NCBI RefSeq assembly: GCF_016906535.1
Contig: NC_057377.1
Coordinates: 1,612,001-1,676,000, forward strand
Direction: 5' to 3'
From: Rhizoctonia solani
Taxonomy: Eukaryota > Basidiomycota > Agaricomycetes > Cantharellales > Ceratobasidiaceae
DNA length: 64,000 bases
The translations under genes and the position numbers were made by a program. The notes under the pieces were generated by a model. The model was not told where the DNA came from. It worked only from the letters and a program-made list of their open reading frames with translations, and ran no database searches. This document shows positions 3,417-62,399 of the stretch, in pieces (within the stretch, counting starts at the first letter, position 1; every line of letters starts with the position of its first letter).

Positions 3417-4831
3417 ATTCGACCCTCAACTAATTATCAACAGAACATGTGGATTAGCACACTCCCTATTTGGACAGAGCAAAATGCCGCCAATGCCCTA
3501 ATCACGCAACGAATCTCGATTGCTTTTACATTCATGCCATATCAACCTATCTTTGGCCTATATATTCCATCTTATTTATGTATGATTCTGTATGGTTGGT
3601 TGGTAGGAGCGTATATATGATGACTTTCAAGTTCGTGATTAACTCAGGGTTCGCGAGCGTTGTCTCCCTGTCATTCTTCGAGTGCTCACACTCTCATCAA
3701 ATGATATAGGATATTAATCTGCGTCCACGGCATACCAGCACCCTCAATTCCACTAAAAAGGCTAAACGGACCGAAGAATAAGGTCCCAATACACGGTTCG
3801 CCCTTGTGACCGGTGTGCTGAGTCCATTGGACAGCTGATAGAATTCACTTGTACCTGAAGGTTTCTCTTACAAACTTACAGGCCTGTAGTAGATCAGTTT
3901 CGCGACTGAGCCTTCCGGTGATGGGTGGGAGATCGTTCTTGATACGGAAAGGATTAAGAGTTTAGATAGTAACAACTTTCTAAGAGCTCGAATATCTTAA
4001 GGATACGCATGTTTAAGCATGGGTGGGCCTGGCCAGCCAGTTGCTCAACGTCCAAGAGTTTCGAATGCACTGTACGTGCTTTAGATTGCTTTAATAGGAA
4101 ACTTATTCATCAGTACAACCGTTGTTCTAAGCTTGGCCATGTTCGAGTTTGAACAGACCCCAGGAAGTAAAAGCCCAAGTGGATTTATATAGAAAAAGAA
4201 GAGAAGGATCTTTCATCCGGAAACCAGTAGGGGCTTTGAAAACCGACTTGCGAACAACTTTGCCGCGCCATCAAGTAACTTTGACACTGAAATCCGGTAG
4301 TCTGAGCCATGAGCTATTGGTAACCATATTGGTATCTTCCATGAGCCGTAGTTCAGATAGAATAGTATTACCTAGTTTCGTGAGAACAGGGTATATGGTG
4401 ATAGATGTTAACGGGGAGAAGCCAGATCCCTCTTAATTGATCATAAGCCGTACATTTACTCTGCAAATTTTACTGGAATTCATGAACACGAAAATGTTCA
4501 AGAAGCATAAACGAAATGATTATGATCATCTTACTTAAGCTTCTCGAGAATTTCGGGCTCATGAGCTCCGGTGGATTTTGTAGAGCATGTGTAAATTGAA
4601 GTCCGTCATGGAGTTTGTGCACAGTGCACAATCTCCACTATCCTCCAAGGCATTGAAGAATTGATTTCGCTATCGCTGATGTCGTTCGGCTCTACCAATG
4701 ACTATCATCATATTCATCGCCTCGTCCAGCGATTGGCAAGTTCAATATCCTTAGGAATCGTTAACTGAACTGTAGTATTATTGGTAGCCTCTGTGTAGTG
4801 AATCACGCTTGTACGGGCGCGCATTCATTCC
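3417..4831. other. Intergenic, no supported gene
   Basis: Only short, unrelated open frames occur here (for example 3470-3709 and 4149-4436). I see no splice-linked coding structure, tRNA or recognisable repeat before the inverted repeat that begins at 4832. Confidence 0.5.
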
Positions 4832-4901
4832 ATGTACTCGTGTTGACATAAAGTATGTGAACACAATAGATTGAGTTCCAGTAGCTGCAGATGTGACTTA
4901 A

Positions 4902-5093
4902 TCACTTAGTCTCAATAATAAAATATGTATATTGGAGTGCCTTGCATTTTATCCAAGTGTCAGAAAATCCAAAAGCTGAGACAGAGGGAGGTGAGGGTGC
5001 ACACATGAAAATGAGCATAAATCTAGCATAGGAAGGCAGCTAGATACAAAGAAAAGAAGTAAATAAAATGATAGTTGGAAGTGTCTTGACCAT
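4902..5093 (-). CDS. Mirror copy of the 39-aa micro-gene in left arm
   Basis: By symmetry of the inverted repeat (positions sum to 10365), exon 5048-5093, intron 4976-5047 and exon 4902-4975 encode the same 39 residues on the minus strand. The two copies are divergent. Their putative starts are about 180 bp apart across the 68-bp spacer, which would have to contain both promoters. The same caution applies as for the right-arm copy. Confidence 0.22.
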
Positions 5094-5271
5094 GTTTGCG
5101 CTTTGAAGCAAGTGTAAATGTTTTGTGGTTAGAGAGATACGTTTGATATAATATTGATGGTTTTGAGTATTTTCATATGTAATTCATAGGAATGATCAGC
5201 ATCCAGTACCATTTTGTATCAAACGTATCTCTCTAACCACAAAACATTTACACTTGCTTCAAAGCGCAAAC

Positions 5272-5463
5272 ATGGTCAAGACACTTCCAACTATCATTTT
5301 ATTTACTTCTTTTCTTTGTATCTAGCTGCCTTCCTATGCTAGATTTATGCTCATTTTCATGTGTGCACCCTCACCTCCCTCTGTCTCAGCTTTTGGATTT
5401 TCTGACACTTGGATAAAATGCAAGGCACTCCAATATACATATTTTATTATTGAGACTAAGTGA
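5272..5463 (+). CDS. Possible 39-aa signal-peptide-like micro-gene in right arm of inverted repeat
   Basis: Exon 5272-5317 reads MVKTLPTIILFTSFL and is followed by a GTATCT...CTCAG intron (5318-5389). Exon 5390-5463 reads on in phase (SFGFSDTWIKCKALQ...) to a TGA, 40 codons in total. The N-terminus has one Lys followed by a hydrophobic run, like a secretion signal. The mature part would be only about 20 residues with one Cys. The same structure exists in the left arm. A peptide this short can arise by chance, and no family is recognised, so this remains tentative. Confidence 0.25.
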
Positions 5464-5533
5464 TTAAGTCACATCTGCAGCTACTGGAACTCAATCTATT
5501 GTGTTCACATACTTTATGTCAACATGAGTACAT

Positions 5534-6855
5534 CAAAATATTTGACTTTGCTCTGTGCCGGCAATCTCAGAGCCTCGTGGTCCACCTTATGACTCGAAAC
5601 TACACCATAGCGCGATCAGTCTGGCCAACACTTCATGATAATACGTAGAAACCTAATTTGATGCTGAGAAGCTAGAATAATCAGAGAAGTTAGGACGATT
5701 GATGTCCCAGTCTTGCGCACTGGAGCTTGGACGAAACCATCTAAAAACTTCTGAATGTATGCGTGACCACGTGACCTTTCCGGCGCTTAGCCCCTATCTG
5801 ATATCTGCGTCCCTATATAGACCACCTTTCGTATGCCCCTTCCCCTTAGTTAGCTTCGCTATTTATCGTGGCCGCTGAGTTATTTGTCTCTCTTGCAGCG
5901 TTATAATGACCGGGACCCAATGCTCAAGGTGATTCTCAAATGAGGCTGAGTAATTGGGCCGCGGATGGTTGGCAAAATCTCAGCGTCGTTCGAATTTCCC
6001 GTACCTTTGTTGGATGCGCGGCGTGTTAGCACCGGTACGTGATGTGAGTGGTTAGCCTTGTTCGCTTGTAGCTCTTTAAATATGAATAAAAAAAACACCG
6101 GCACGTGACCGTATGGTCTTCGACGAAATCGTAGCCTCTCATCCCTATCCAATAGGGGGTCGATACATACCTGTATTGGCGATATCGCCCCTCCTCGCTC
6201 GTCTCCCGCCATACTGAGAGGTACCAGAAATCTAGTGGCTTTTGGGGTTCACCATGCGCTATTAGATCTCCGTACCGCTTATAGGTAGTGGGAGCGCATA
6301 TAAATGTCATTGAGTAAGGATAATGGGGGGGGGGGGTAATACGTATGCAAAAAGGGGAAGCCCGTGCGTCAGGAGATGCGCTGAGGATTGTGTGGCACAA
6401 GAGCTTGGGTGAGCGGGATCAAAACAAGCAAAGTGGGCCTTGTGAAAGTCCGCGATCTTCCGCCGGAGAGGACAAGTCGGGTGATTGACGATTCATGTTT
6501 TCGGCTGATCCAGGCGAGCTGCAGAACAACAGCCCAGATAGTCTCATGATGCAATGGCTATGGGACAAGGACAAGTAGGCAAGCGCGCATACCATCGGAT
6601 CTAGTAAACATATATCACCTCCACAAGCTATGGCAATATTCTATATACATACTTTTATTCATAAAGTCAGCTTTGGGGGTTTGTCTTATACCTGGCGTAG
6701 GCCGGAGTTTTGAAATACTTTCGTCGGATGAAATTAGGGATATTGCTAAGGCTTGCATGAGTTCATGCAAATAAATGTGCTCAAAAATACTACTTTGCTG
6801 CATTATAAATACATATCATCAAATCATCATCGAACTCGTAACTTCTCTTGTCTAC
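5534..6855. other. Intergenic, no supported gene; E-boxes and a poly-G tract
   Basis: No coding structure was found. CACGTG occurs at 5768-5773 (followed by a TATATAGAC-like AT box near 5813) and at 6102-6107. A run of about 12 G residues sits near 6327-6338. Overlapping minus-strand open frames between 5901 and 6803 have no recognisable protein features. Confidence 0.5.
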
Positions 6856-8903
6856 TTATGCGTCACCAGGATTGACAGTAAGAGGGGTATCCATAATCCA
6901 CCTGACAAACATATCCAACGCGGCCTCAGGTTGATCGTACGGGACCATGTGGCCGGCATCGTAAATCTGGACGTAGGTAACGTTTCCGGCGGTAAATTGG
7001 CCCTTGCCACCAGCAGTCTTGACAAAACCGGCAGGCTTGTTTGTCTTGCTAGATAGAGGAATGAACGGAACTTGCTTCGCGGCTTGGAAATCTGCCTGGA
7101 AGGAAGTCTCCAATCCCTCGAGCCATTGGAGATTACCCTAAAATGGCGTGTAAGAGAGCGGTAGAGCGCTTCGCAAAAACTACTTACGATCGCGTTGCAC
7201 ATAAAATCGGCGTTACCAGCGTAAATGAGCAGGCGGACACCGTCTTCGATAAGCTCGGGCAACAATGCGGCGGCATTGTGCATTCCGTCACCTTGCATCA
7301 TAAAGGCCTGGTTGACTTTCATATTGCAGCCTGGAAGTAAACGTTGATTAGTAAGACGCATGACAACGGGTTTGTCTAACTGACTCTTGAATTCACGATC
7401 ACCGACAGCACCAAGCTCGGACTTGACCTTGTCATCGTTCATGAAAGTCTCGATCCACTCAAGCTGGCGGTAGCAGAGATCACCATCCTCGGCCTTGTTG
7501 CACTTGCGACGTACATCGTAAGGGTTCAGACCAAGTTGCTACAAATACAAGTTTAGTCAGTTTTCTTATCCTTCCCTGGACGAACTTGCAACGCACTTGG
7601 AAGGAGCCAAACATCTGAGACCAGCAGTAAAGAGCGGCAGGGACACAAGACAAGCGGTTGTTGTAGTCATAACAACTCTTAATCAAACGCTGGCAAGTCG
7701 GAACCTTGGCACGCAAGCTAGTACACTGTGGGCCATTGGTGTCAAATACTGGGTAGGGACCATCGCAGGCGTATTCAGGGACCGACGCGAACTGTGTGTA
7801 TGGCTCGGTCAAGCCTTGCAAATAACCGGTCAACTCGGAGCTCACAGCTCGGTGATAGAGGGACGCACCGTTTCCAATTAATACACTGTCCAAATGCAGA
7901 ACCTTGACCTTGTTGTCAGGAAGGAGTCCCTGAGTGGCACGGGCCTTGATTTCCTTGTTCTTGGTATGAATCACGTGGGCAATATTAGGGAGATAAGTGC
8001 CTCCATATGATTCACCGGAGATATGGAGAGAACCTGAGTACTCGGGGAAGCGGTTGACGAAAAGTTCGAGGAATGACCACACATCCTCCGCGGCGACTGG
8101 AGAGGTATTCACGCCACCGTTCTTCGAGTACGAATAGCCAACATTGATGGGTTCTGCAGGAGGCACGTGAGCTAATGTAACAAGGAGACAAAGAGGTCTT
8201 ACGATCAAGGAACAACATATTAGCGTGAGTATTCCAAGAGTACTTGTTGTATGTAGTGTTTTGGCCGTTGTTTGCAATGTTGCACGGCCCGAGCTCGAAA
8301 AGCAAGCCAGTGGATGACGAACAGCCAGGTCCACCGTTCAACCAGAGCACCAGTGGTGCTTTGGCTGGGTTGGCGCGCGACTCGAAGAACCTATTTGTAA
8401 CCATTGGCTAAAAATGGAAACAAAAATGTGATTAAAAAACGCACCAGAAAAACAAATGCTTGTCATCATCAATATCGAGGTAACCGCTGTACTGCTTGAC
8501 ATTGGGGTCACAGAGCTGAGGTTTCTTGACACGGATCTGGTATCCTGGGAAAGATGCATGACGGAAGCGTTCATCTGCCATCAGGTCTTATCAGAAAACT
8601 GCGGCACAGCTTATCAGGTCGGCGCCACTCACAAACAATGTCGTTCTGCTTCACAAACTCGGTGTTCCCCACACTCCACTCCTGGACCGTGTCCTCCACC
8701 TTGTTCGAGATCTTTTCGCCGGCATGAAGAACTGTGTCAAGGAGGTGCTCGGCGCCACGGAAGACATCGCCAAACACGTTTTCAGCGGTTTCAGCAATAA
8801 TCTTATCGACGCTCATACGTAGCTGCGTGCTCTCTTCATTGGAGGCAGCCGGAGTGGCAGCTACAAGAGACGCAAGAGAAAGCAAAGCAAGTGCCGACTT
8901 CAT
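6856..8903 (-). CDS. Serine carboxypeptidase, CPY-like (peptidase family S10)
   Basis: Seven exons give a 574-aa preproprotein: 8633-8903, 8445-8574, 8203-8390, 7597-8153, 7385-7538, 7188-7330 and 6856-7137. All phases close. It starts with a signal peptide ([19 protein letters not shown]), then a propeptide of about 100 residues, then the mature enzyme ([17 protein letters not shown]). The oxyanion/substrate segment is [15 protein letters not shown]. The catalytic triad is visible: Ser in [12 protein letters not shown], Asp in [13 protein letters not shown], and His in [16 protein letters not shown]. The family removes C-terminal residues in the vacuole or outside the cell. Length and propeptide fit the vacuolar carboxypeptidase Y type. 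It is the most divergent of three S10 genes in this window. It diverges from SRP14 across 111 bp. Confidence 0.95.
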
Positions 8904-26796: not shown

Positions 26797-28837
26797 CTAT
26801 CTCATAGACGGTTCGCCAGTTGCTAGCGGAAGGTTAAATATCCAACTAATTATAACTGATTCAGTATGCTCTGAAAGAGGGATTTCAGTCACTAACCGAT
26901 TGAACATGTCCAGGGTTGCTTGCGGTTGATCATGTGGGGCCAGGTGGCCAGCCTCGTGAATCTCCATAAGCGCAATCCGGCCTGAATCATTACCGCTGCT
27001 CGTGGTTCGAATGTGCCCAGCTATACGATCCCCCGATTGAGAGTTCTCGCGAAAGGAGTTTACAAAACTTTGCTGGAAGGTGGTGTTCAGGTTCTCGAGC
27101 CAAAGTATCATTCCCTGTTATCTTATTTCAGTGATTAAATAAGAGAAAGGCGACAAACCCACACCGATAATGCAGAAAGAAGATCTAAAGTAACAGCTAG
27201 ACAGTAGCTTAGTGTATACATGTGAAACGGTCCTTACCAGCATCCCCAGCATAGTTTAACATCCTCACACCTCCTTCGATCATTTCGGGGAGCAATGCAG
27301 CCGCATTTCGAATAGCATCCCCAGAATGAATAAATGCTTGGTTGATTACACTGGTGCATGCTATATCCCAGCACGGTTACTTCGGTTTTGTACTCTAAAC
27401 AAATGAATCTCTCACGTTTGAACTCGATGTGCGATGCGATTCCCAATTCACTCTTAACATCCGGGTAGTTGAGATACTTGGACATCCATCCAACCTCTGG
27501 ATAACAAGCAAAACTTCCGTTCCTAGCATCACAATTTGACCTTGCATCAAGAAGATTTAGTCCAGATTGCTAGCCCGAACCATTCAGCGAAGCTCCGAAA
27601 GTTACGTCGTGAAAAAAACACTTACATTAATCATGTCAGTCATTTCCTCAAGACAGAACTGAGCTGTAGCTCCGCATACAAGATCAGTGTCAACCTTGTC
27701 ACAGTACTAGGTTTCAAATGAGAGAGAAGCCCTCGAAGACTATAATATAACGAACTCGTACCTCGATCATGCGTAGACATGTGACCTCGTGCTTCTTCAG
27801 TTTCTTACATTCAGTACTGTTTTTCTTCCAGACCTGCCACTTCCCGCCCCCGCACCACCAGTCGTACGTAGCTCCAAACTGATACCAGGGGTGGGTAAGG
27901 CCTATCGTACCAGAAAACCACATAGTTCACCATAACTAGTTAGGCACCATGTACTCCAACTTACCACCTCCGATCATGATGCTAGTCAGATTGATTTTCA
28001 GCCAATCCCCGTTAAATTTATCAACTTGTTTGTTGTTTTCCCATATTTTATGGGCAATATATGGGATATATATCCCTGCATAGGACTCGCCTGCGACGTG
28101 CAGCTCGCCCGCATATTCGCCAAAACGCCGGTAAAATAGTTGCAGAAATACCCACATATCCTTTGCCGCTTCGAGCGAGTTGGTCATTGTCGAACCAGTG
28201 TTATATGAATACCCCACACCAGCAGGTTCTTCAGATTGACGATTATCGTTGGGTAGTTTAGCTGGATTGGGCAGAGGTACTTACGATCAATGAAGAGCAT
28301 GTTTACATTCGTATTCCACGACCACGGGTTAATAGTAGTGTTTCTTCCGCCTTCACTAACCGTGCAAGGGCCGAGCTCAAGAAACAGACCGGTGCTGCTG
28401 GAACATCCGGGACCACCGTTGAGCCATATTGCGACCGGTGCCGAGCCAGGGTTATTCCTGGCTTCAAAAAACCTGAAAATCACAGCATATATGTTATGAT
28501 GCGGTAGAGGATTTGGTGCAAGATAAGGAGAGGCTCACCAAAAGAACACATGTTTATCTTCGGAGATATCAAGATACCCGCTATACTGTTTAACACTTGG
28601 GTCGCACAATTTACTAGGTGACTTGACTCGGAGCTTAGAATTAGGTAAAGCTGTATGTGAGAAGTGCTCAACTAATAATTTCGTTAGACATCCAACTCAG
28701 TTGATCATAAACACTGACTCACATTGAACGTCATTGGTTTCTGGCTCAACGCCCTCTGGTTGCCCGTTCTGGAATATGACGCTACCTAGGGAAGGGCATA
28801 CGAAAGCGAGGCTAAGAAGTACTAGTCTAAACCTCAT
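26797..28837 (-). CDS. Secreted serine carboxypeptidase B (peptidase family S10), tandem copy
   Basis: About eleven exons splice into one frame. The N-terminus [20 protein letters not shown] is a signal peptide. Unlike the CPY-like gene at 6856-8903 there is almost no propeptide before [15 protein letters not shown] and [16 protein letters not shown]. Active-site regions: [16 protein letters not shown]; Ser in [17 protein letters not shown]; Asp in [11 protein letters not shown], made by splicing; His in [16 protein letters not shown]. It should remove C-terminal residues from peptides, probably outside the cell. Intron positions match those of the next gene upstream, so the pair arose by tandem duplication. 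The short exon after the catalytic Asp reads DLLSALS where the sister has DLLCPGT, losing its Cys and Pro. Confidence 0.92.
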
Positions 28838-29185: not shown

Positions 29186-31214
29186 CTACTTCTCTCCAGA
29201 CAGTGGCTTGTTCCAGATCCAACTAATCACAGATAATTAGCATATAAAAAGAAGTTATTTTAAAACCATTTACCGATTAAACATGTCAAGTGCTGCGTCG
29301 GGTTGGTCATGCGGAGCCATGTGCCCAGCTTCGAATAACTCAACATAGGCTATGCGACCAGCTTCTTTGTTCCCGCCAGTTGAACGGACGAACCCAGCAG
29401 TGCGATTGTGCGTTCGGAAATCTGTAGCAGGGGAGTCTATGAATTTTTGTTGGAACATAGTGCCAAGGTGTTCCATCCAAAGAATTTGACCCTATTACGC
29501 ATAAGTCGGTTGTTCAAGATATTGATAAAAGTCCGATGACTTACTGTCCCAGGACACAACAGATCTATAATTGATGGTCATGAGTGAGCACAGAGTATAA
29601 TGATTAAACTTACCGGCATCTCCAACGTAGATTAACATCCGAACTCCGTCATTAATCAAGTCGGGTAATAAAAGTGCAGAATTCCGCGCAGCATCTCCAG
29701 ACCTGATAAAGCTCTTGTGCACGGTTATGTTGCAAGCTATGCCGGATGGTTGTGAGTTTAGGATATTGGAGAAAAACTCCGACCAATCACTTACATGTAA
29801 ATAAGACATCAGGGTGCCCACCAAGCTGTCTCCTTATCTCTGGCCTATTGAGATACATCGGAATCCACCTGCTGGCGTCATAGCATTCCGAATCCTCTGT
29901 ACGACCACACTTCATCCTCGCATCATAAGGATTTAAACCAGACTCCTATAGCCAATCATGAGTACTTCTCACTCTTCTACACAAGAACCTACGTACCGCA
30001 GCCCGAGCAAGTGTTCGGTCGAAACAGAACAACCCAGCCGTGCCGCACACAATGTCAGAACCGTAGTCTTCACACGACTGCGGCGAGAATGTGAGTAGAA
30101 GTCGATGCGAGCCAACATTGTTTACACATACCTTTAGGAGACGCTGACAGACTGGAATATCCCTGGCGAGCTGTTTGCATACCTCGCTATCCTGGTCATA
30201 CACGGGCCATTTGCCTTTTCCACACCACCAATCATACAACACTGGGAGTTGATACGATGGATTCGTCAAACCTGACCTCGCGAGATTAACTGCCAATCAT
30301 CATATTCAACGCGAACCGCTCACCGTTACCAATCAAAATACTCGTCAAATTCACCTTGACCAACTCGTCGCTCTTTCCAAGTTTTCGGTTGTTTTTCCAA
30401 ATCGCATTGACGATATGTGGAACGTATGTTCCGGCATACGATTCTCCAGCGACGTGCAGTTCACCTGCGTACTGGCCGAACCGCTTGTAGAATAGTTGGA
30501 GGAACGACCACATATCTTCGGCCGCAACGAACGAGTCGGTGACTTCGGGTCCAGTGTTGTACGAGTATCCGACTCCAGCGGGTTCTGTGTTTCAACGACG
30601 ATTAGGTACAAGTTCAATCTCAGGAAAGCGTAGAACCTACGATCAATGAACAACAGGTTCGCATTGTTGTTCCACGACCAATCATTTACTGTCGTGCCAT
30701 TTCCACCTTTTTCGATCGAGCAAGGACCGAGAGCGAAGAAAAGGCCCATAGCGCTTGTGCATCCCGGCCCTCCATTTAGCCAAATGACAATTGGTGCCGT
30801 CTCTGGATTGTTTCGAGCCTCGAAAAACCTGGCAAGTAGCGTCAGCCTCACGGTAAAACGAGAGAACGAGAGAACAATATAAATGGATTTAGAATTGGAC
30901 CGAAATAAACTCACCAAAAGAATAGGTGTTTACTTTCTGCGACATCGAGATAGCCACTATACTGCTTAACGGTAGGGTCGCATAGCCTGGGCTCCTTGAT
31001 CCTGAGCTTGTAGTCCGGTATGGCCGAATGAGAAAAATGCTCAACTGCCGGTATAAGTTTATTTAAACGATGTCACGACAAAATTACAAGACTCACACTG
31101 GACATCATCTAAGACTAAGCCTTGCTGAGCTCCTTGGCCAAGCACCCTCTCGGAAGGAAACGCGACAGCTTGTGTCGCCAGCGCGAGTATGATTCCTCCT
31201 AGTGGCAACCTCAT
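29186..31214 (-). CDS. Secreted serine carboxypeptidase C (peptidase family S10), tandem copy
   Basis: About eleven exons, same layout as copy B. Signal peptide MRLPLGGIILALATQAVAFP, then a short linker ending LDDVQ. Active-site regions: [20 protein letters not shown]; Ser in [17 protein letters not shown]; Asp in MLIYVGDADLLCPG; His in LFEAGHMAPHDQPDAA. It ends WIWNKPLSGEK. Oxyanion and triad residues are intact. The gene lies 348 bp upstream of copy B in the same direction. Its promoter has CACGTG at 31345-31350. Expected to act as an extracellular or vacuolar carboxypeptidase in protein breakdown. Confidence 0.92.
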
Positions 31215-34833: not shown

Positions 34834-36249
34834 CTACTCCTCGCATACGTAGCATAGATAGTCGCTGGCCGTTTCAAAGACCTCCGAGATCTTTACTGGA
34901 CGGGTCAATCCCACGGTGGGTAGCTCATTCGACTTTTCTGCGGCAGGAGGAGCGCCAACAGGGTATGTATCGAAATTAGCGAGATCCTGTGTCAGCCCTC
35001 CTCCATAGGCTCCCTTGTTCTTCTTGTTCGCACTCTGCCACTTTGCCCAAATGCAGTCAATGTTCTACAGTAAACACGTCAGTGATGATCATACGTAAAT
35101 CACCTGAAACTTACTGCATGATGCAAGTAGAATAACGCATCATTTGGCGACCATAACGGATGCGAAATATCACTAAGACAGTGAGTCCCGTTAGTCTCCG
35201 AGCACAGGATCTTACCTAACCAAGAAAGCAAACTCACCCGGGCATCATCAAGTGGGCGGCGTTGTGTGGACCTTGTGCGCGCACTCCATCAATCTTAAAA
35301 GCAAAATCTGTATAGTTCCCCACAGAGCCATTGATTATTGCGTTGATGTTGTCTGGTGCGAGAACATTGGGCGCGGCCAGCTCACGATCAGGAAAGTTGA
35401 ACGGGAAGGTATCGGTTCTGAATGGCTATACCCCCCCCCCCCAAAAAAAAAGCTAATATTGAACACAGTTGGTTAAGTAGAACGATCGGGAGTACATACG
35501 TAAGGGGTATAGGTGCGATTGATGACATGCGGTGTAGGGTACGCTCGATAGGAATTCTTGAATGCACCATCGGTCAATGGCGTCCCAAACGTTCCCAGCC
35601 CGGTTTCGGGATCAGCATCAAATACTGGAGCGGAAGTCATATTGGCCACGTCTACATTTAATCATAAATTTAATACTCGCGCCTCGTTGACCGAAAAAGA
35701 ATACGTACCTAAGGACCAATTCCAGTACGGCAACACGCCCTTGTATCCACATCGCTGCTTCAAAGCATCGTGGAAAGTATGCAAGTACCACCTGTGCCAG
35801 GGTAAAAATACTTCGAGCGCTAATTAGTACTCAGCTATACCTTGTCAACATGGAGTGCTTACGCGCTGTAAAGTGATCCTTGTTGTTAGAATCCATGTGT
35901 GCGTATACAAGATCGTCAAAGTATGAGGACTTCGAGTTGTAGGCTGGTATGCCTGGGGTATCCCCTTTAGGTGAAAGGTCACTCGTCTTTCCGTATTCGT
36001 ATGGCTTTTGAAGACACTGGAATACCATCCATGAGATCAGAGAAATTAGGATGAAAATCAACGAACGAAACGAACCTTGACAGCATCTATGAATGCCTTC
36101 CTGTCCTTGCGAGAAATGGTCCTCCATTCCTTGCGTTTGGCAGGCTGACGACATTTGTTGCCACCCCTCGCAAAGGAGTCGGCGTCCGAGTCGGCAGCGA
36201 ATGCACCCAACGCAAGAGCGGTGACAGAAAGTAGGCTGGCGAGCTTCAT
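34834..36249 (-). CDS. Secreted tyrosinase-domain protein 1
   Basis: Signal peptide MKLASLLSVTALALGAFA. The first exon is 36076-36249 and the second starts at 36016. The copper-A region is YFDDLVYAHMDSNNKDHFTA plus FLPWHRWYLHTFHDALKQRC, giving three His ligands. The family motif GVLPYWNWSL follows. The copper-B region has GPHNAAHLMMPG and HPLWSPNDALFYLHHA. The C-terminus reads WAKWQSANKKNKGAYGGGL, YPVGAPPAAEKSNEL, and ends CYVCEE. The family is a type-3 copper oxidase of phenols to quinones. The protein is short, lacks the long autoinhibitory C-terminal domain of mushroom PPO tyrosinases, and is secreted. It is a paralogue of the gene at 40471-41876. Its promoter has CACGTG at 36613-36618. 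Confidence 0.92.
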
Positions 36250-40470: not shown

Positions 40471-41876
40471 TTACCATATGCATTTGTAGCAAAGATTGCT
40501 CCTCTTGGTTGACATCATATCAGAAACCTGAGCAGGAGGACTGAGGCCTTCTGTGGGGAGCAGGGAGGAGAAATTGGCAGCAGGAGGAGCGCCAACAGGG
40601 TATAGGTGGTAGTTTTCAACATCTTGGGTAAGCCCTCCGCCAAACGCCATAGCATTTTCCGGGCGACGGTCTTGCCATTTCTCCCAGATACAGTCAATGT
40701 GCTGAATTTTCAAATTAGTTGAACTATTTGAGCTATTTGGGATGGATTACATACTGCATGGTGTAGATAGAAGAGTGGGTCATTGGGCGACCAGAGCAGG
40801 TTCCCCATATCACTAATTCCGGGTTCAATTAACAGGGCATTTGAAAGACATCAGAACTCACCCTCCCATCATCAAATGAGCGGCGTTGTGTGGGCCTTGG
40901 GCAGTGACGCCATCAATCTTGTATGCAAAATCAGTAAAGTTTCCTGTCGAGCCTTCCACAATGTTCTCCATCGCCTCTGGAGCAAATGGTTGGGTGGCAT
41001 GCATTTCAGGAGCATTAAACCCGAACGGGAACACGTGATTATCGAATGGCTAAAAATATATCACTGGACTATCCTGACTTAAATTGTGGCAAGGAGCTTA
41101 CGCGTGGATTGAACTTTCGGCTGACAACGTGGGGTACGGGGTAGGCTCGTATGGTGGTACCGAAAGCACCATCTTTGACTTCCCACTTGTCGTCCGCCGA
41201 GGTTCCGAACGTTCCGAGTCCAGACTCCGGATCGGCATCGAAGATAGGAGAGTTTGTGATATTTCCCACATCTGTAGATAGAGTTAACGTTGGAATGTAG
41301 CTATGATGCAAACTGGGGTTTGACTTACCCAATGACCAGTTCCAATATGGCATCACCCCACCATACGCGCATTTATCTTTCAGTGCCGTGTGAAATGTAT
41401 GCAAGAACCACCGATGCCAGGGTAAGAACACTATTTTTAGAGGCCGAATGGTTTAGGAAACTAGCATGTCCTTAAATGGAACGTTATCACTCACGGGCAG
41501 TGAAGTGGTCCTTGATGTTTGAATCTATGTGTACGTAGACAAAGTCGTCGAAATATGACGACGATAAGTTCATCGAGGGAATATCAGGCGTTGCTCCGAC
41601 TGGTGTCAGTTTTGGGTTATGAGGGAGTTCTCCAAGGCACTGAATATTAAAATATTCACTTTCAATGGGGGCGAGCAGGCAAACAAAAAGACAAACCTTG
41701 ACAGCATCGATGAAAGCCTTTCTCTCCGATCGATCTAGTGTTCGCCATTCCCTACGTTCTGCTGGTTTCTCGCACTGTGCGTTTTGGACTAGAGGAGTAA
41801 CTTCCAGGGGCGTTTCCTCGGAAACAACGACAGTGATAGAGAATAAGAGTGAAGTCAAGAAGGATGAGAGCTTCAT
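40471..41876 (-). CDS. Secreted tyrosinase-domain protein 2
   Basis: Signal peptide MKLSSFLTSLLFSITVVVS. The first exon ends in RSERKAFIDAVK, the same place as in tyrosinase 1. The copper-A region is YFDDFVYVHIDSNIKDHFTA then FLPWHRWFLHTFHTALKDKC, followed by GGVMPYWNWSLGK. The middle reads NSPIFDADPESGLGTFGTSA. The copper-B region includes GPHNAAHLMMGG-type sequence near 40880 and a His-His pair before NIDCIWEKWQDRRPENAMAF. It ends YPVGAPPAANFSSLLPTE and then CYKCIW. Expected to oxidise phenols outside the cell. Intron positions match tyrosinase 1, so the two are duplicates now separated by the GST gene. Confidence 0.91.
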
Positions 41877-50008: not shown

Positions 50009-51236
50009 CATTTGACTTTTTTTTTGGCTTCGGCTGATCATGCAAGGTGGTCTTGCCTTATCTTTATGCAATGACGGTGCTGCCACATACCTTGGCTTCC
50101 GCTCCACAGTCGCACCCCGTCGCGCCCTCGGAATCGATATTGTATTTCACCCACATCTTCCTCACCCCCACATCGCATCCTGTTTATTTTTCACGTATTT
50201 TCTATTTCCGCCTTTTCAAGGTGCATACTTTATTTCTTACTGCTCACAACACGGACTCTTCCCTCTCGCTCGTTCCTTCCTTGTTCACACGATTTTTTGC
50301 CGAACCGGCGTAAATTGACGATTACCATTCGCCGTATAAATTTAGAAACGCCGAGTGAGGGGAACTGGCTCGCTACTTGAAATTACCCCTCTTCCGCCAA
50401 GTTGTAATTGACGTTTCATCAGTCGCGTGAGCGAGACAGTCCCCCCGAATTTTCATTTTCATTTCGTAGCACCGGCAATCGGACACCTACGACTTCCATA
50501 ATCCTAATATGGGGTTTATTAGACCCAATAGAAGCACCCCTGTTTGAACGGGCCCCACATTTCTGACGATCGTTTGCTTTCATATTCTCTACCTTGATCT
50601 CTCATCCGAAGAATCGTGCCAGCTCATTTGTTGGGACTGACATCATGGTATATCATGGTTCGGCCGCGTTGATACGGATTGGCACAGGATCAATGGCGCA
50701 ACCGTTGAATTCGGAGAGATATTCGGAGTGGGAGGGATGGGTTGGAAGGACAATATCCGCCGAGGAACATGCGAGAGATAAAACCTGCTTGCGAGGTCGG
50801 CCGATGTGCAAAGAGATCTCGTAAATGGAATTTATTCTGTACTTTATATATGTTTACATGGGGACGATTGTTGACGCTGGCGAGACTCGTAACCGGTGGT
50901 GAATCCGGGGGTGGACCGGTGCGGGGAAGGCACACCCGCTCAAGCGCCGAGACTGGGTCCCCCTCTCCCCTTCTTTGGACCACGGCCAAGCAAGGCACAG
51001 CAGCAAGTCCAGACACAATCACGAACGGGCTAGACACGGTCTCATATAGACTATTGGCTTATCGCGGGGTAAGGGGAGTGAGGTGGATGTGCGGAGATGC
51101 AAGTTGGACCCGGATAAGCGAATTGGGAATTGGCTGGGGGTCCATATAGAGCGAGGTGGGATCGAGATCTGAGTTACCCTCCGTGTCCCCGCCTGTCCTG
51201 TCCTGTCCTGCCCTCCTCCTCTCCCCCTCCGTCAGC
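50009..51236. other. Intergenic with CT-rich leader upstream of siroheme synthase
   Basis: No gene is supported; frames near 50040-50320 are CT/T-rich artefacts. A pyrimidine-rich tract at about 51181-51231 (repeated TCCTG units then CTCCTCCTCT) lies immediately before the ATG. Such tracts are common in strongly transcribed fungal promoters or 5' leaders. Confidence 0.5.
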
Positions 51237-53669
51237 ATGGTCCGATATCCAGAGCCGACAAGAGGTGCATCGTTGCTGATCGCACTAAAGCCAACACGGA
51301 AGCCGATACTTGTCGTCGGATCGGGATCGCTCGCCGCAAGCCGTATTTTCAGTGCGTTGGAGGCAGATGCGGACGTACTGATTGCCTCGCGAGGCTCTAT
51401 CCGACACGCATGCGAGGAAGTACAATGGAGAGTCTACCATGGCGATGCGGAATGGCTCGATGCGACCGATGCAGTCCAAGACGATCCGGACCAGCAGCAG
51501 ACCACGTTCGGAGCCCTACTAGACGCGAATCCCGCCATCCAGCTCGTGTGCGTCACCGATACACTCAATGCCACCGAGGCTCTCCCCAAGCGCTCTGCTG
51601 CGTCAGCAAAGGCCATTGCCAGAGCGTGCAGAGACAGACGCATATGGGTCAATGTCGCTGATATGCCGTCCCTCTGTGATTTTACGTTTCCGGCCACACA
51701 CCGATTCGCTCTTTCCTCCCAGTCCACCGACGATCCCAATTTGCGCACTGTTGATATCAAGGGGTCCGCACTTCAGCTTGCTGTCACTGCCAACGGCCAC
51801 GGATGCCGCCTCGCCTCTCGTCTCAAACGCGAAGTCGTCGCTCGATTGCCTCGTAATGTCGGGGACGCAGTCGACAATGTCGGCCGACTCAGACTTCTCG
51901 CCCGTTCCGAGGATGAAGATCCAGAGGCGCTGAGTTCGGCCATGACCATGCACGACTCGGGCGTGCAATTTTTCGATGAAGATGATTCCAGTCCGATTAA
52001 TAAGCCCGTTCCCCAGCGGTCTCACGACGAGTCCCCAGCCGAGCGCTGTGCGAGACGTATGAGATGGGTTGCCCAGCTCAGCGAGTATACGCCTCTGGAG
52101 CAGCTCGCGAGCATGGACAAGGCGGGAATGAAGGAGGTGCTCGAGTCGCGTCTTCCAGCCAAGCCAAGCGGGACTGGTAAATGCGGACGTGGAAGATCCA
52201 ATTCGCCGCTCAAGTCGGACCCGACTAAACCCCCCGCGGAGCCAGAAACGAGTATTCCCAGTCGCCATCACCTCGCACTTGACCCGCCCCCTCGCTCCGA
52301 TCCTACTTCCGGTCGTATCATCCTCGTTGGCTCTGGACCTGGTCACCCTGCGCTCCTTACACGTGCCGCACATCATGCCATCACCAATCTTGCCACACTT
52401 GTTCTCGCTGATAAACTCGTCCCCGGAGAAATCATGGCTATTATACCTAAACACGTCGAGGTGCGTTTCCTTTCAGTCCACTATATAGAATTCGCATCCA
52501 ACCGGTCCACAGGTCAAGGTAGCCAAGAAATACCCGGGCAACGCTGAACACGCCCAAGACGAGTTTATCCAACTTGCCATCCAAGGAGCCAGAGCTGGGA
52601 AATGCGTCATCAGAGTGCGTCTACCTCGTAGTTGCTCCGTCTCTTTTTACTTAGCCCCCCTTGGCAGTTGAAACAGGGCGACCCTTACCTCTACGGACGA
52701 GGCGGCGAAGAACTCCTCGCGTTCCAAGCCGCCGAACCACCACTCGCGCACCCACCACTCGTGATACCCGGAATCTCATCCGCACTCTCCGCCCCGCTCC
52801 TATCCACCATCCCCGTCACCCAGCGCAACGTTGCCGACTCGCTCGTCATTTGCACCGCCGTCGGAAAGGGCGGAAAGGGCGGGATCGTATGGGGCTACGA
52901 GCGCGCACGGTCGCTCGTTATTCTCATGGGCGTCGCCAGACTGGGGGAACTTGTTAGGTGCTTGGTCACTGGGAGCAGCGAAGGCGCGGTAATCGGCGGC
53001 GGCGGTGTAGCAAAACGGCTAGTTGGCGGGTTGTCAAGTACGAAACCTGTCCCAGTCGTCCCCGTCGCACCTGTGCCTCCTTCAACTTCTTCAGCACCCG
53101 CACAATCGAATAGCTCCAGACCCACCCCGACCCCCATCTCCACCACCACCACCACCTCGACTCCTCCACCCAACTCGACATTGACATCAACACCACAACC
53201 TCCCTCTCCAAACCCCAACGCGCCACCCACACCCATCACATCCCCACTCACCCTCTCCGGCCCGGTCTACCCGCCCTCGACGCCCATCGCGATCATCGAA
53301 CGCGCCTCGATGCCGGACCAAAGGCTCATCGCGACGAGTCTGGACAGGATCGAACGCGCACTGGAGCGCGAGGGCGGCGGGAGACCTCCGGGTATGATTA
53401 TCGTTGGCTGGGCCGTCGTCGCGCTCGCCCAGAGTCAGGTCCATTCTCGAACGCCATCATCACCATTGCCACCACCACCACCATCGTCGTCGTCGTCGTC
53501 GGCGGCACCGCCAAGAGACGGAGGGATTCTGGATATCAAGGGAGACGGTCTAGGCGCGTACGACGAGACGCGGGATCGGGAGAGACTCGAGCGGTGGTTG
53601 GGTGGGAGGGAGTACGTGACTCGTGAGGGCATGGAAGATGGATGGGAGGTGTTTGCCGGTTTGGCGTGA
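51237..53669 (+). CDS. Siroheme synthase: Met8-like NAD domain fused to uroporphyrinogen-III C-methyltransferase
   Basis: Three exons (51237-52460, 52513-52614, 52668-53669) give 775 aa. The N-terminal Rossmann domain (KPILVVGSGSLAASRIFSAL, then WVNVADMPSLCDFTFPA) resembles precorrin-2 dehydrogenase/ferrochelatase (Met8). The C-terminal domain starts GRIILVGSGPGHPALLTRAA; most relatives have GPGDP, so His replaces Asp. It continues LVLADKLVPGEIM, LKQGDPYLYGRGGEELL, VIPGISSALSAPL, IPVTQRNVADSLVICTA and LVILMGVARLGEL, all uroporphyrinogen-III methyltransferase motifs. The product siroheme is the cofactor of sulfite and nitrite reductases. A Pro/Thr/Ser-rich insert (residues about 565-645) interrupts the methyltransferase domain before IAIIERASMPDQRLIATSLD. 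A second Pro/Ser stretch, with (TCG)n codons, lies near residues 697-728. Confidence 0.93.
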
Positions 53670-56323: not shown

Positions 56324-57393
56324 TCAGAGAGTCGGACTGTCACTGCAGGGACTCGAATCTGAGACTAAGAACTCCTGCTTAAGCGGAAGTCTCGATGAAA
56401 TCCGCTGTCGGAGCTGGAAGCGTAATCAATATGAAAAGCGTATGGACGACTGCATAGAGTTGATTTACCTTTGTCCCCACAGGCTCTCTAATCGTGTGAG
56501 CGTTCGAGCACAATTCATCTTTGGCCCAATGCCTCGCCCTCGCGTCGGTTCGACGGAACGTTTGGCCACATCCAAGGCATTCGTAAGGCTTCTCATTCGC
56601 TAGGTGTTATATTTAGCTGTCCGAATAGGCATGACATCTCAATAACCGGACTCACTATGTAGACGCATATGCCGGTTGATATCGTGAAGCCGAGTCATTT
56701 GTACTGGGCAAAAATCGCAAGAATACTGAGCGCGCTATATCAATGAGTGTCAGAGGCTATTCTAGGAACAATTGTCATAACAAATACCAAGTGAGGTTTG
56801 CTACTCTTCCTCTTACCGCGAGCTCGTGTGGGTGTTGTAGTGTCTCGGGTACTGGGGCACGAAGGGAGATTGGTACTACTCTTGCTTGAAAAATCTGGCA
56901 GAAGTGTGGTCGCTGTCTTGTCAAATAAGGACAGCGGAACGAGTGGCGGGCTTGAGGTTGAATCGAGCTTTAAGTAACTCCATGGCATTTCTGACCAGTG
57001 ATCATGATGGCGATTGAACAATTGGAGTTCCTGATTGTTTGGTGAACCTTGATAGCGATCTGTATGGATGTCGCTTAAACCTAACTCCCAAGGAGTTTGC
57101 GAGATGGCTAACGCTTTTAGCATACGAGTGATGATGACGATAGTTTGCCGCATACCAGGGTGATCCAATGGGTTCCCGAAAGCCATGTCTTTATACGAAG
57201 ACGCTCCAACCTTGTCCCAGTCGAAGTTGATATTGTGGCTTGCCTGCTGGATTAGAGTTGTTGCGTCAAGGTATTTGTGATGAGAAGTCCAAAATGGGCT
57301 CCAGAGTGGGTGAATGCAAGGATACTGAAAGAACCGGTTAATCGATAGCTCGAGGGCAAAACAACAAAGAGCTCAAACTTCAGAACGTACCAT
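56324..57393 (-). CDS. C2H2 zinc-finger protein 1
   Basis: The probable start is an ATG at 57391-57393 as a 3-nt exon, joined by GTACGT...TTTCAG to YPCIHPLWSPFWTSHHKYLD. The long middle exon ends at a basic patch TPTRARGKRKSSKPHL, which may be a nuclear signal. Two fingers follow: CDFCPVQMTRLHDINRHMRL-H (C-x2-C-x12-H-x3-H) and CLGCGQTFRRTDARARHWAK. In the second finger, the position for the second His (three residues after the first) is Asp, and a Cys lies two residues on, so it may bind zinc as C2HC or be weakened. The last exon starts LRQRISSRLPLKQ and stops at 56324. It probably binds DNA in the nucleus. Paralogue at 61441-62399. Confidence 0.82.
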
Positions 57394-61440: not shown

Positions 61441-62399
61441 TCAATTGCTGTTAGAAATATTCCTATCCGTGATGAGCGAATCGTACTGAGCCCTCAATGA
61501 TATCCTCTGCCGAGACTAACAAACCGGTCAGTATGAAGAATTTATATGTCTATATATGTGTATCAAACTCACCCGAGCACCAGCAGGCTCCCTGATTCTG
61601 TGGGCGATCGAACATGATCCATGCTTAACCCAATGCCTTGCTCTAGCATCAGTTCGGCGGAATGTTTGACCACATCCGAGGCATTCGTAAGGCTTTTCAT
61701 TTGCTACGAATTTGATTATCATTTCAGCATGGAAAGATGGTTCTTTTGCGGATGAACTCACTGTGCAAGCGCATATGTCGGTTGATATCATGCAGTCGAG
61801 ACATTTGTACTGGACAAAAATCACAAGGATATTGTGCGCGCTGGTGCGATAGATGTGAGGGTGAGTTTGAGTTATTTTAAATAAAAGAAGTACCAAATCA
61901 GAGCGATCGTTTTTTCTCCCGCATCGAGTTGGCACGTGAAAGGTAACCGCTTGTGGAATTCTAGGGACTAACGGGACGTCAATCATCTCTGCTCCTGGAA
62001 ATTCTGGAGAGGAAGTGGCCGACTCCGTGTCTGAGAAGGGGTGATTTGATAAGGTGGAATTCGGGTTCAAGTCGATTCTAAAATATCCTCCATGTTTCTC
62101 CGAACAAGACATTCGGTCGTACGTGTAACTTCTTGTGGATGAGCCTTGGTCGTCTACTACGTGATTTTTTACAACACAACCAGAGCCAGGTAGCCGAGGG
62201 AGTGGGCAATGCTTATTATCAGCTTGATGGGGACGAGTACCATGGGACAGTCTTACATACCAGAATAATTCCAACCATTCTCATATGTGGGTATTTTATG
62301 AGAAGGTGCCTGGATGGCTTTCCAATCCAAGTCATGGTCATAATCTACCTGGTGAATCGACGGTACATGGCTCATCTCCGACATAGATTTCTCGGACAT
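61441..62399 (-). CDS. C2H2 zinc-finger protein 2 (paralogue of 56324-57393)
   Basis: The start is probably the ATG at 62397-62399 (MSEKSMSEMSHVPSIHQ). The first intron is unusually short if read as GTATGT...CAAG near 62250, so the 5' end is uncertain. The middle contains SDTESATSSPEFPGAEMIDV and VPRIPQAVTFHVPTRCG. The fingers are CDFCPVQMSRLHDINRHMRL-H and CLGCGQTFRRTDARARHWVK-H, both complete C2H2. The last exon reads SRQRISLRAQYDSLIT, matching the RQRIS.R ending of the paralogue. Intron positions inside the finger block are also shared. It is a likely nuclear DNA-binding protein. Confidence 0.8.

Follow-up and report, generated by a model that had tools for sequence, protein, structure and literature searches.

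The palindrome at positions 4832 to 5533 of the window (the whole 64-kb stretch of Rhizoctonia solani DNA analyzed here) is, with a probability of roughly 85%, one copy of a 690-bp noncoding DNA transposon that is almost wholly palindromic, of the fold-back or long-TIR MITE kind, and whose two arms are homogenized within each copy. A repeat search gave arms of 323 nt, 99% complementary and separated by 56 nt. The left arm (4832 to 5154, forward strand) includes a GTAC motif and an outer AT, the right arm (5211 to 5533, reverse strand) is its reverse complement with 3 mismatches in 323 positions (4840, 5149, and 5152), and the spacer at 5155 to 5210 forms the loop. The 317-nt arms, 68-nt spacer, and single mismatch of the preliminary description correspond to the same repeat, trimmed at 5148 ahead of the last two mismatches. 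Between its two GTAC copies, the element body (4838 to 5527) is about 92% arm. Across the window, the search (seed 12) gave no other inverted repeat reaching 40 nt, and no tandem array was reported at 4832 to 5533 (score of 50 or more), so these are long TIRs without tandem repeats. The RNA fold of the palindrome reaches -597.7 kcal/mol, versus -161.4 ± 6.9 kcal/mol in shuffled sequences (0 of 20 as low), and the palindrome is far beyond chance.

We saw no coding capacity in the element body. The ORFs starting with ATG, GTG, or TTG were listed for the window copy with introns left out of account; the longest wholly internal one has 42 aa, and a 62-aa one exits into the flank. Such short internal ORFs, together with the occurrence of the whole arm-spacer-arm unit in five dispersed copies and of insertion-free paralogous sites for two of them, speak against the suggestion that the structure is an inverted duplication of a small gene.

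Other repeats occur in the same window. Directly left of the element, at 4459 to 4586 (L064 and L065), lies a separate, older hairpin of about 130 bp that is MITE-like and has genome matches listed on both strands at 72 to 82% identity, and a stretch of about 75 bp at 6037 to 6111 has many matches of 83 to 98% elsewhere in the genome. There are also diverged direct repeats, pairing 35231 to 36144 with 40855 to 41765 and 56480 to 56736 with 61584 to 61842 (sets about 5.1 to 5.6 kb apart), with further ones at 8440 to 8512, 28534 to 28606, and 30910 to 30982; the diverged direct repeats are probably duplicated genes.

A siroheme-synthase-like ORF at 51156 to 52547 of the window matches a Rhizoctonia solani protein at 99% identity over 89% of the query, followed by other R. 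solani and Ceratobasidium proteins; on this one protein, the host is R. solani-like.

Comparing one arm with the genome, a check proposed in the preliminary description, did reveal further copies. With one arm as the query against the whole assembly (40.7 Mb in 16 contigs, match counts being lower bounds), the family comprises five full palindromes, one decayed copy, and two solo ends. Besides the window copy (C8), the full palindromes lie on contig C3 at 1459857 to 1460558 (C3b), contig C9 at 151998 to 152692 (C9), contig C2 at 2600991 to 2601688 (C2), and contig C3 at 283954 to 284834 (C3a), the last being interrupted by an LTR-like insert (174 bp, CTATC duplication). The decayed copy is a short palindrome on contig C5 with 81% self-identity. 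The solo ends, at C15:282844-282889 (L022) and C10:182589-182629 (L023), are 40 to 47 bp long and run into unrelated sequence; their two regions have only 40 bp in common. The ends of the family read TCRTGYTGACATAAAGTATGTGAAC. The solo ends may be what is left of deleted palindromes or may stem from a longer element since lost, and the shared end of about 41 bp is probably either the part recognized by a transposase or what palindrome deletion leaves behind.

A TRIM-like retroelement of about 436 bp was seen at L062 (C16:48019-48453) and L063, with a single LTR at L020:1463-1636. It has LTRs of about 174 bp (TG...CA), an internal part of about 88 bp, and 5-bp duplications (ATTTG and ACCAC), and there are at least 58 near-identical matches among those listed, with 40 of 350 candidates scored. 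Each LTR carries a compact stretch that we take to be tRNA-like, with A-box and B-box motifs.

All 10 ends of the five full copies read GTACT, and all five copies sit at GTAC. As this motif is palindromic, a duplicated GTAC looks like arm sequence, and the earlier statement that no target duplication flanks the repeat has to be withdrawn: the window copy carries GTAC at 4834 to 4837 and again at 5528 to 5531, which we identify as the duplicated target from the single motif in the empty sites of two sister copies. Empty sites were sought with the flanks of every full copy except C3a, and insertion-free paralogues were found for C3b and C2, while the same flank search of the genome returned none for the window copy. 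The empty site of C3b is at C6 1495577-1495833, with flanks 78% and 89% identical and one ATAC at the junction. For C2, 14 of 15 hand-picked paralogues align across the junction, 12 of these 14 with one GTA, and the full GTAC is present in 3 of those 12 (L045, L053, and L057). A high-copy repeat (L019:478-1007 and 1698-1753), with more than 50 matches at 71 to 90% identity among those listed, surrounds the C2 copy. The single motif in the paralogues of both copies indicates that empty sites have one target motif and filled sites have two. Since the motif is palindromic, the duplicated unit may be 2 to 4 bp, with TA, GTA, TAC, and GTAC equally consistent, and no shared flank repeat beyond GTAC was seen by eye in the five copies.

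These features are those of a nonautonomous TIR transposon, namely, dispersed copies with the same ends, terminal inverted repeats, and no coding capacity, to which a target duplication can be added for two of the five insertions (neither of them the window copy, and with the 2- to 4-bp ambiguity of the unit). Of the origins offered at first sight, the fold-back element is thus the one that held, given the dispersed copies, their common ends, and insertion at GTAC with a duplication visible against the empty sites of two copies.

The arms of this transposon agree with each other far better than its copies do. We compared the arm core (positions 10 to 315, about 306 positions) in the five full copies, so that neither the decayed palindrome on C5 nor the solo ends entered the comparison. 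Of the 44 core pair positions that vary, 35 distinguish copies while the two arms of every copy agree. At the other 9, the arms of a single copy disagree; these 9 reflect about six events, of which one is an indel region of 4 columns. Gap columns aside, the arms within a copy differ in the core at 0 positions in C8, 1 in C3b, 0 in C9, 3 in C2, and 2 in C3a (gap differences outside these counts being one in C9 and two in C2), versus 7 to 28 differences (median of 21.5 in 40 comparisons) between arms of different copies. For all 10 arms, the nearest relative is the arm's own partner; of the 120 ways of re-pairing the arms among the copies, none but the true one does as well, and the arm-pair clades have supports of 96% (C3b), 99% (C9), 68% (C2), and 98% (C3a).

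Changes on both sides of the stem account for 37 pairs and 54 cells, versus shuffled means of 17.1 and 18.7, and 0 of 500 shuffles were as high. Cells that pair make up 98.8%, versus 96.1% in shuffles. The test treated the C3a insert as unpaired columns, and of its five measures, one (the count of further pair types) did not rise above the shuffles (41 versus 43.0; 421 of 500). As the shuffle control ignores relatedness, more weight falls on the tree and on the slides, in which moving the partner by 1 to 3 columns leaves only 0 to 2 both-sided pairs. The site patterns of the left arms fit a single unrooted tree, (C8,C3b)-C9-(C2,C3a), with no conflict, which suggests that exchange operates inside copies. 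Mosaic exchange between copies was considered and set aside, as no left-arm site pattern conflicts with the tree.

The arms disagree in every copy only at position 9 and, near the loop, at positions 318 and 321. These exceptions sit at both ends of the stem, where they fit conversion or hairpin repair. At position 9 (4840 in the window), one arm has G and the other A in all five copies. Seen from the loop, four copies have the A on the same side and the window copy has it swapped, as one crossover between the arms would do, although this is a single case. Among the five copies, substitutions affect 2 of the 56 loop columns (4 columns vary if gaps are counted), versus 39 of 306 in the left-arm core; these are raw counts, to which CpG decay contributes.

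Taken from the sequences, recurrent arm-to-arm conversion, or mismatch repair at the level of the hairpin, appears to be the best account of the arm agreement, as independent mutation, selection for pairing, and re-duplication of an arm each fit badly. Independent mutation cannot readily produce such agreement, and the other two are weighed below. A common loop with the same asymmetric borders in all copies points to a single origin of the palindrome, whose arms would later have been homogenized repeatedly inside each copy, either through gene conversion or through mismatch repair acting on DNA extruded as a hairpin or cruciform. The differences that persist in every copy are confined to the outermost 9 bp and the loop side of the stem, places where the hairpin may fray or a conversion tract may end.

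The copies are also depleted in CpG. Observed/expected ratios are 0.22 in C8, 0.35 in C3b, 0.09 in C9, 0 in C2, and 0.04 in C3a (insert left out), and that of the window is 0.94; none of 210 overlapping 702-bp tiles of the window is as CpG poor as the window copy, the lowest tile being at 0.38. Exchanges among CG, TG, and CA account for 14 of the 39 variable left-arm core columns. This loss suggests that the copies were once cytosine methylated.

Selection on a functional long double-stranded RNA could, in principle, have kept the arms alike by removing unpaired changes, and such an hpRNA locus would explain the extreme RNA fold and the dominance of both-sided changes. Dicer processing of the hairpin is possible, as judged from its sequence, and two loci in the genome have the Dicer dimerization domain above the cutoff. 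Excerpts of a re-analysis of fungi (PMC9757828) also credit R. solani with the most confirmed and replicated mi/milRNA loci. We nevertheless consider this selection doubtful. It should leave many G-U intermediates, and we found 3 one-sided wobble cells against 54 both-sided ones; 9 of the 35 paired positions go beyond simple transitions, which account for the other 26; and dispersal and empty sites are traits of a transposon. In addition, none of the 20 distinct novel R. solani AG1-IA milRNAs of one table in PMC8304579 has a match in any of the five copies with up to 3 mismatches allowed; the same article also counts 128 known milRNAs, and PMC8004440 counts 171 milRNAs. No Rfam family reaches its gathering score in the window, and the subthreshold matches of Rfam miRNA models on both strands of the palindrome fit a generic hairpin shape. 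The weak point of the preferred account is that one assembly cannot show conversion in action, and selection for pairing is a less probable alternative.

Less probable still is that each copy was made anew by copying one arm, through template switching or snap-back replication, so that arm identity would mark the birth of the copy. Arms that are nearly identical in every copy would follow directly. However, the five copies have the 56-nt loop in common, with 2 substituted columns and a few 1-nt gaps, together with its asymmetric borders, and every copy has a G in one arm and an A in the other at arm position 9, all of which copying an arm would erase.

The preliminary description had left the choice between very recent origin and ongoing conversion, and the comparison of arms and copies favors conversion. 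A recent burst, in which the arms agree through the youth of the copies alone, could point to the absence of core mismatches in the window copy, but it is very improbable and is contradicted by copies that differ at 7 to 28 of about 306 arm positions where their own arms differ at 0 to 3, which makes the copy lineages older than their arm identity. Finally, long palindromes are a known type of assembly or library artifact, but a false inverted duplication is extremely unlikely here, as five diverged copies with the same loop lie at five different places and two of the sites have insertion-free paralogues.

For the transposon itself, we propose that the element would have been moved in trans by a cut-and-paste transposase reading the ends of about 41 bp. 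No transposase-bearing partner with the family ends was found in the assembly, a search that more diverged ends would escape. Searches with a 30-mer from the end, allowing 3 mismatches, and with a 16-mer, allowing 1, returned the known family only, plus one 1-mismatch 16-mer on C10, and a 20-mer (3 mismatches) gave 13 exact family matches and 5 others, versus 4 for a reversed control. Near the C15 and C10 solo ends, 19 stop-to-stop ORFs of at least 150 aa were listed, and the 9 that were scanned included no transposase (8 had no Pfam match and 1 was a pheromone receptor). Viral contigs contained no exact family 20-mer.

A further proposal, which we regard as speculative, is a self-homogenizing transposon, in which hairpin DNA makes the arms correct each other and the transposase-binding ends thereby stay matched, read-through double-stranded RNA drove CpG methylation and silencing, and the transposase belongs to a GTAC-targeting group undescribed in fungi.

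Among known elements, MITEs resemble the Rhizoctonia element in being short and noncoding, with inverted ends, a target duplication, and no transposase gene. They differ in that MITEs are usually high copy; the Rhizoctonia element has five full copies, few for a MITE, which counts against our preferred explanation, and its body is mostly arm. Foldback elements (FB, Tetris, and Tm1) are likewise mostly inverted repeat and nonautonomous. As far as part of PMC4079207 describes it, Tetris differs in its 8- to 10-bp duplications and tandem repeats within the TIRs, and neither of these marks of Mutator-type Foldback elements is seen in the Rhizoctonia element. In the same portion of that article, TIR repeats of Tetris group by copy in two of three complete copies, and homogenization is named as possible. 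Galileo of Drosophila (P superfamily), as described in sections of PMC2775673, also has long foldback-like TIRs around a middle part and two copies with higher identity within than between copies: the TIRs of GalileoN-1 and -2 are >99% identical within a copy and about 7% apart between copies, and those of GalileoN-4 and -5 are about 6% different within a copy, which its authors read as chimeras. Galileo differs in its 7-bp target duplication (consensus GTAGTAC), which the Rhizoctonia element lacks, and in TIRs of up to 1.2 kb, versus GTAC, 323-nt arms, and no transposase found. From what these sources report, within-copy arm identity in fold-back transposons has precedent, and the duplication length and TIR build argue against membership in either Galileo or the Mutator-type Foldback elements. 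With fungal hpRNA and milRNA loci, the likeness is a near-perfect long hairpin transcript, whereas the structure and spread of the Rhizoctonia element are explained by transposition. We therefore file it as a low-copy new member of the fold-back/MITE kind, placed in no superfamily. A narrow literature search found nothing on GTAC duplications in fungi or on inverted repeats and methylation in basidiomycetes, and no published description of this family appeared among titles and abstract openings.

As a transposon family, the significance of the element is modest. Arm-to-arm homogenization is familiar mostly from large palindromes and fly transposons, and the five copies here, which have the loop in common, a history that fits a tree, and 35 positions changed in both arms, provide a clean natural record of it in a short palindrome. 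As a low-copy, sequence-defined hairpin of a basidiomycete, the element makes siRNA production, methylation, and palindrome repair testable together.
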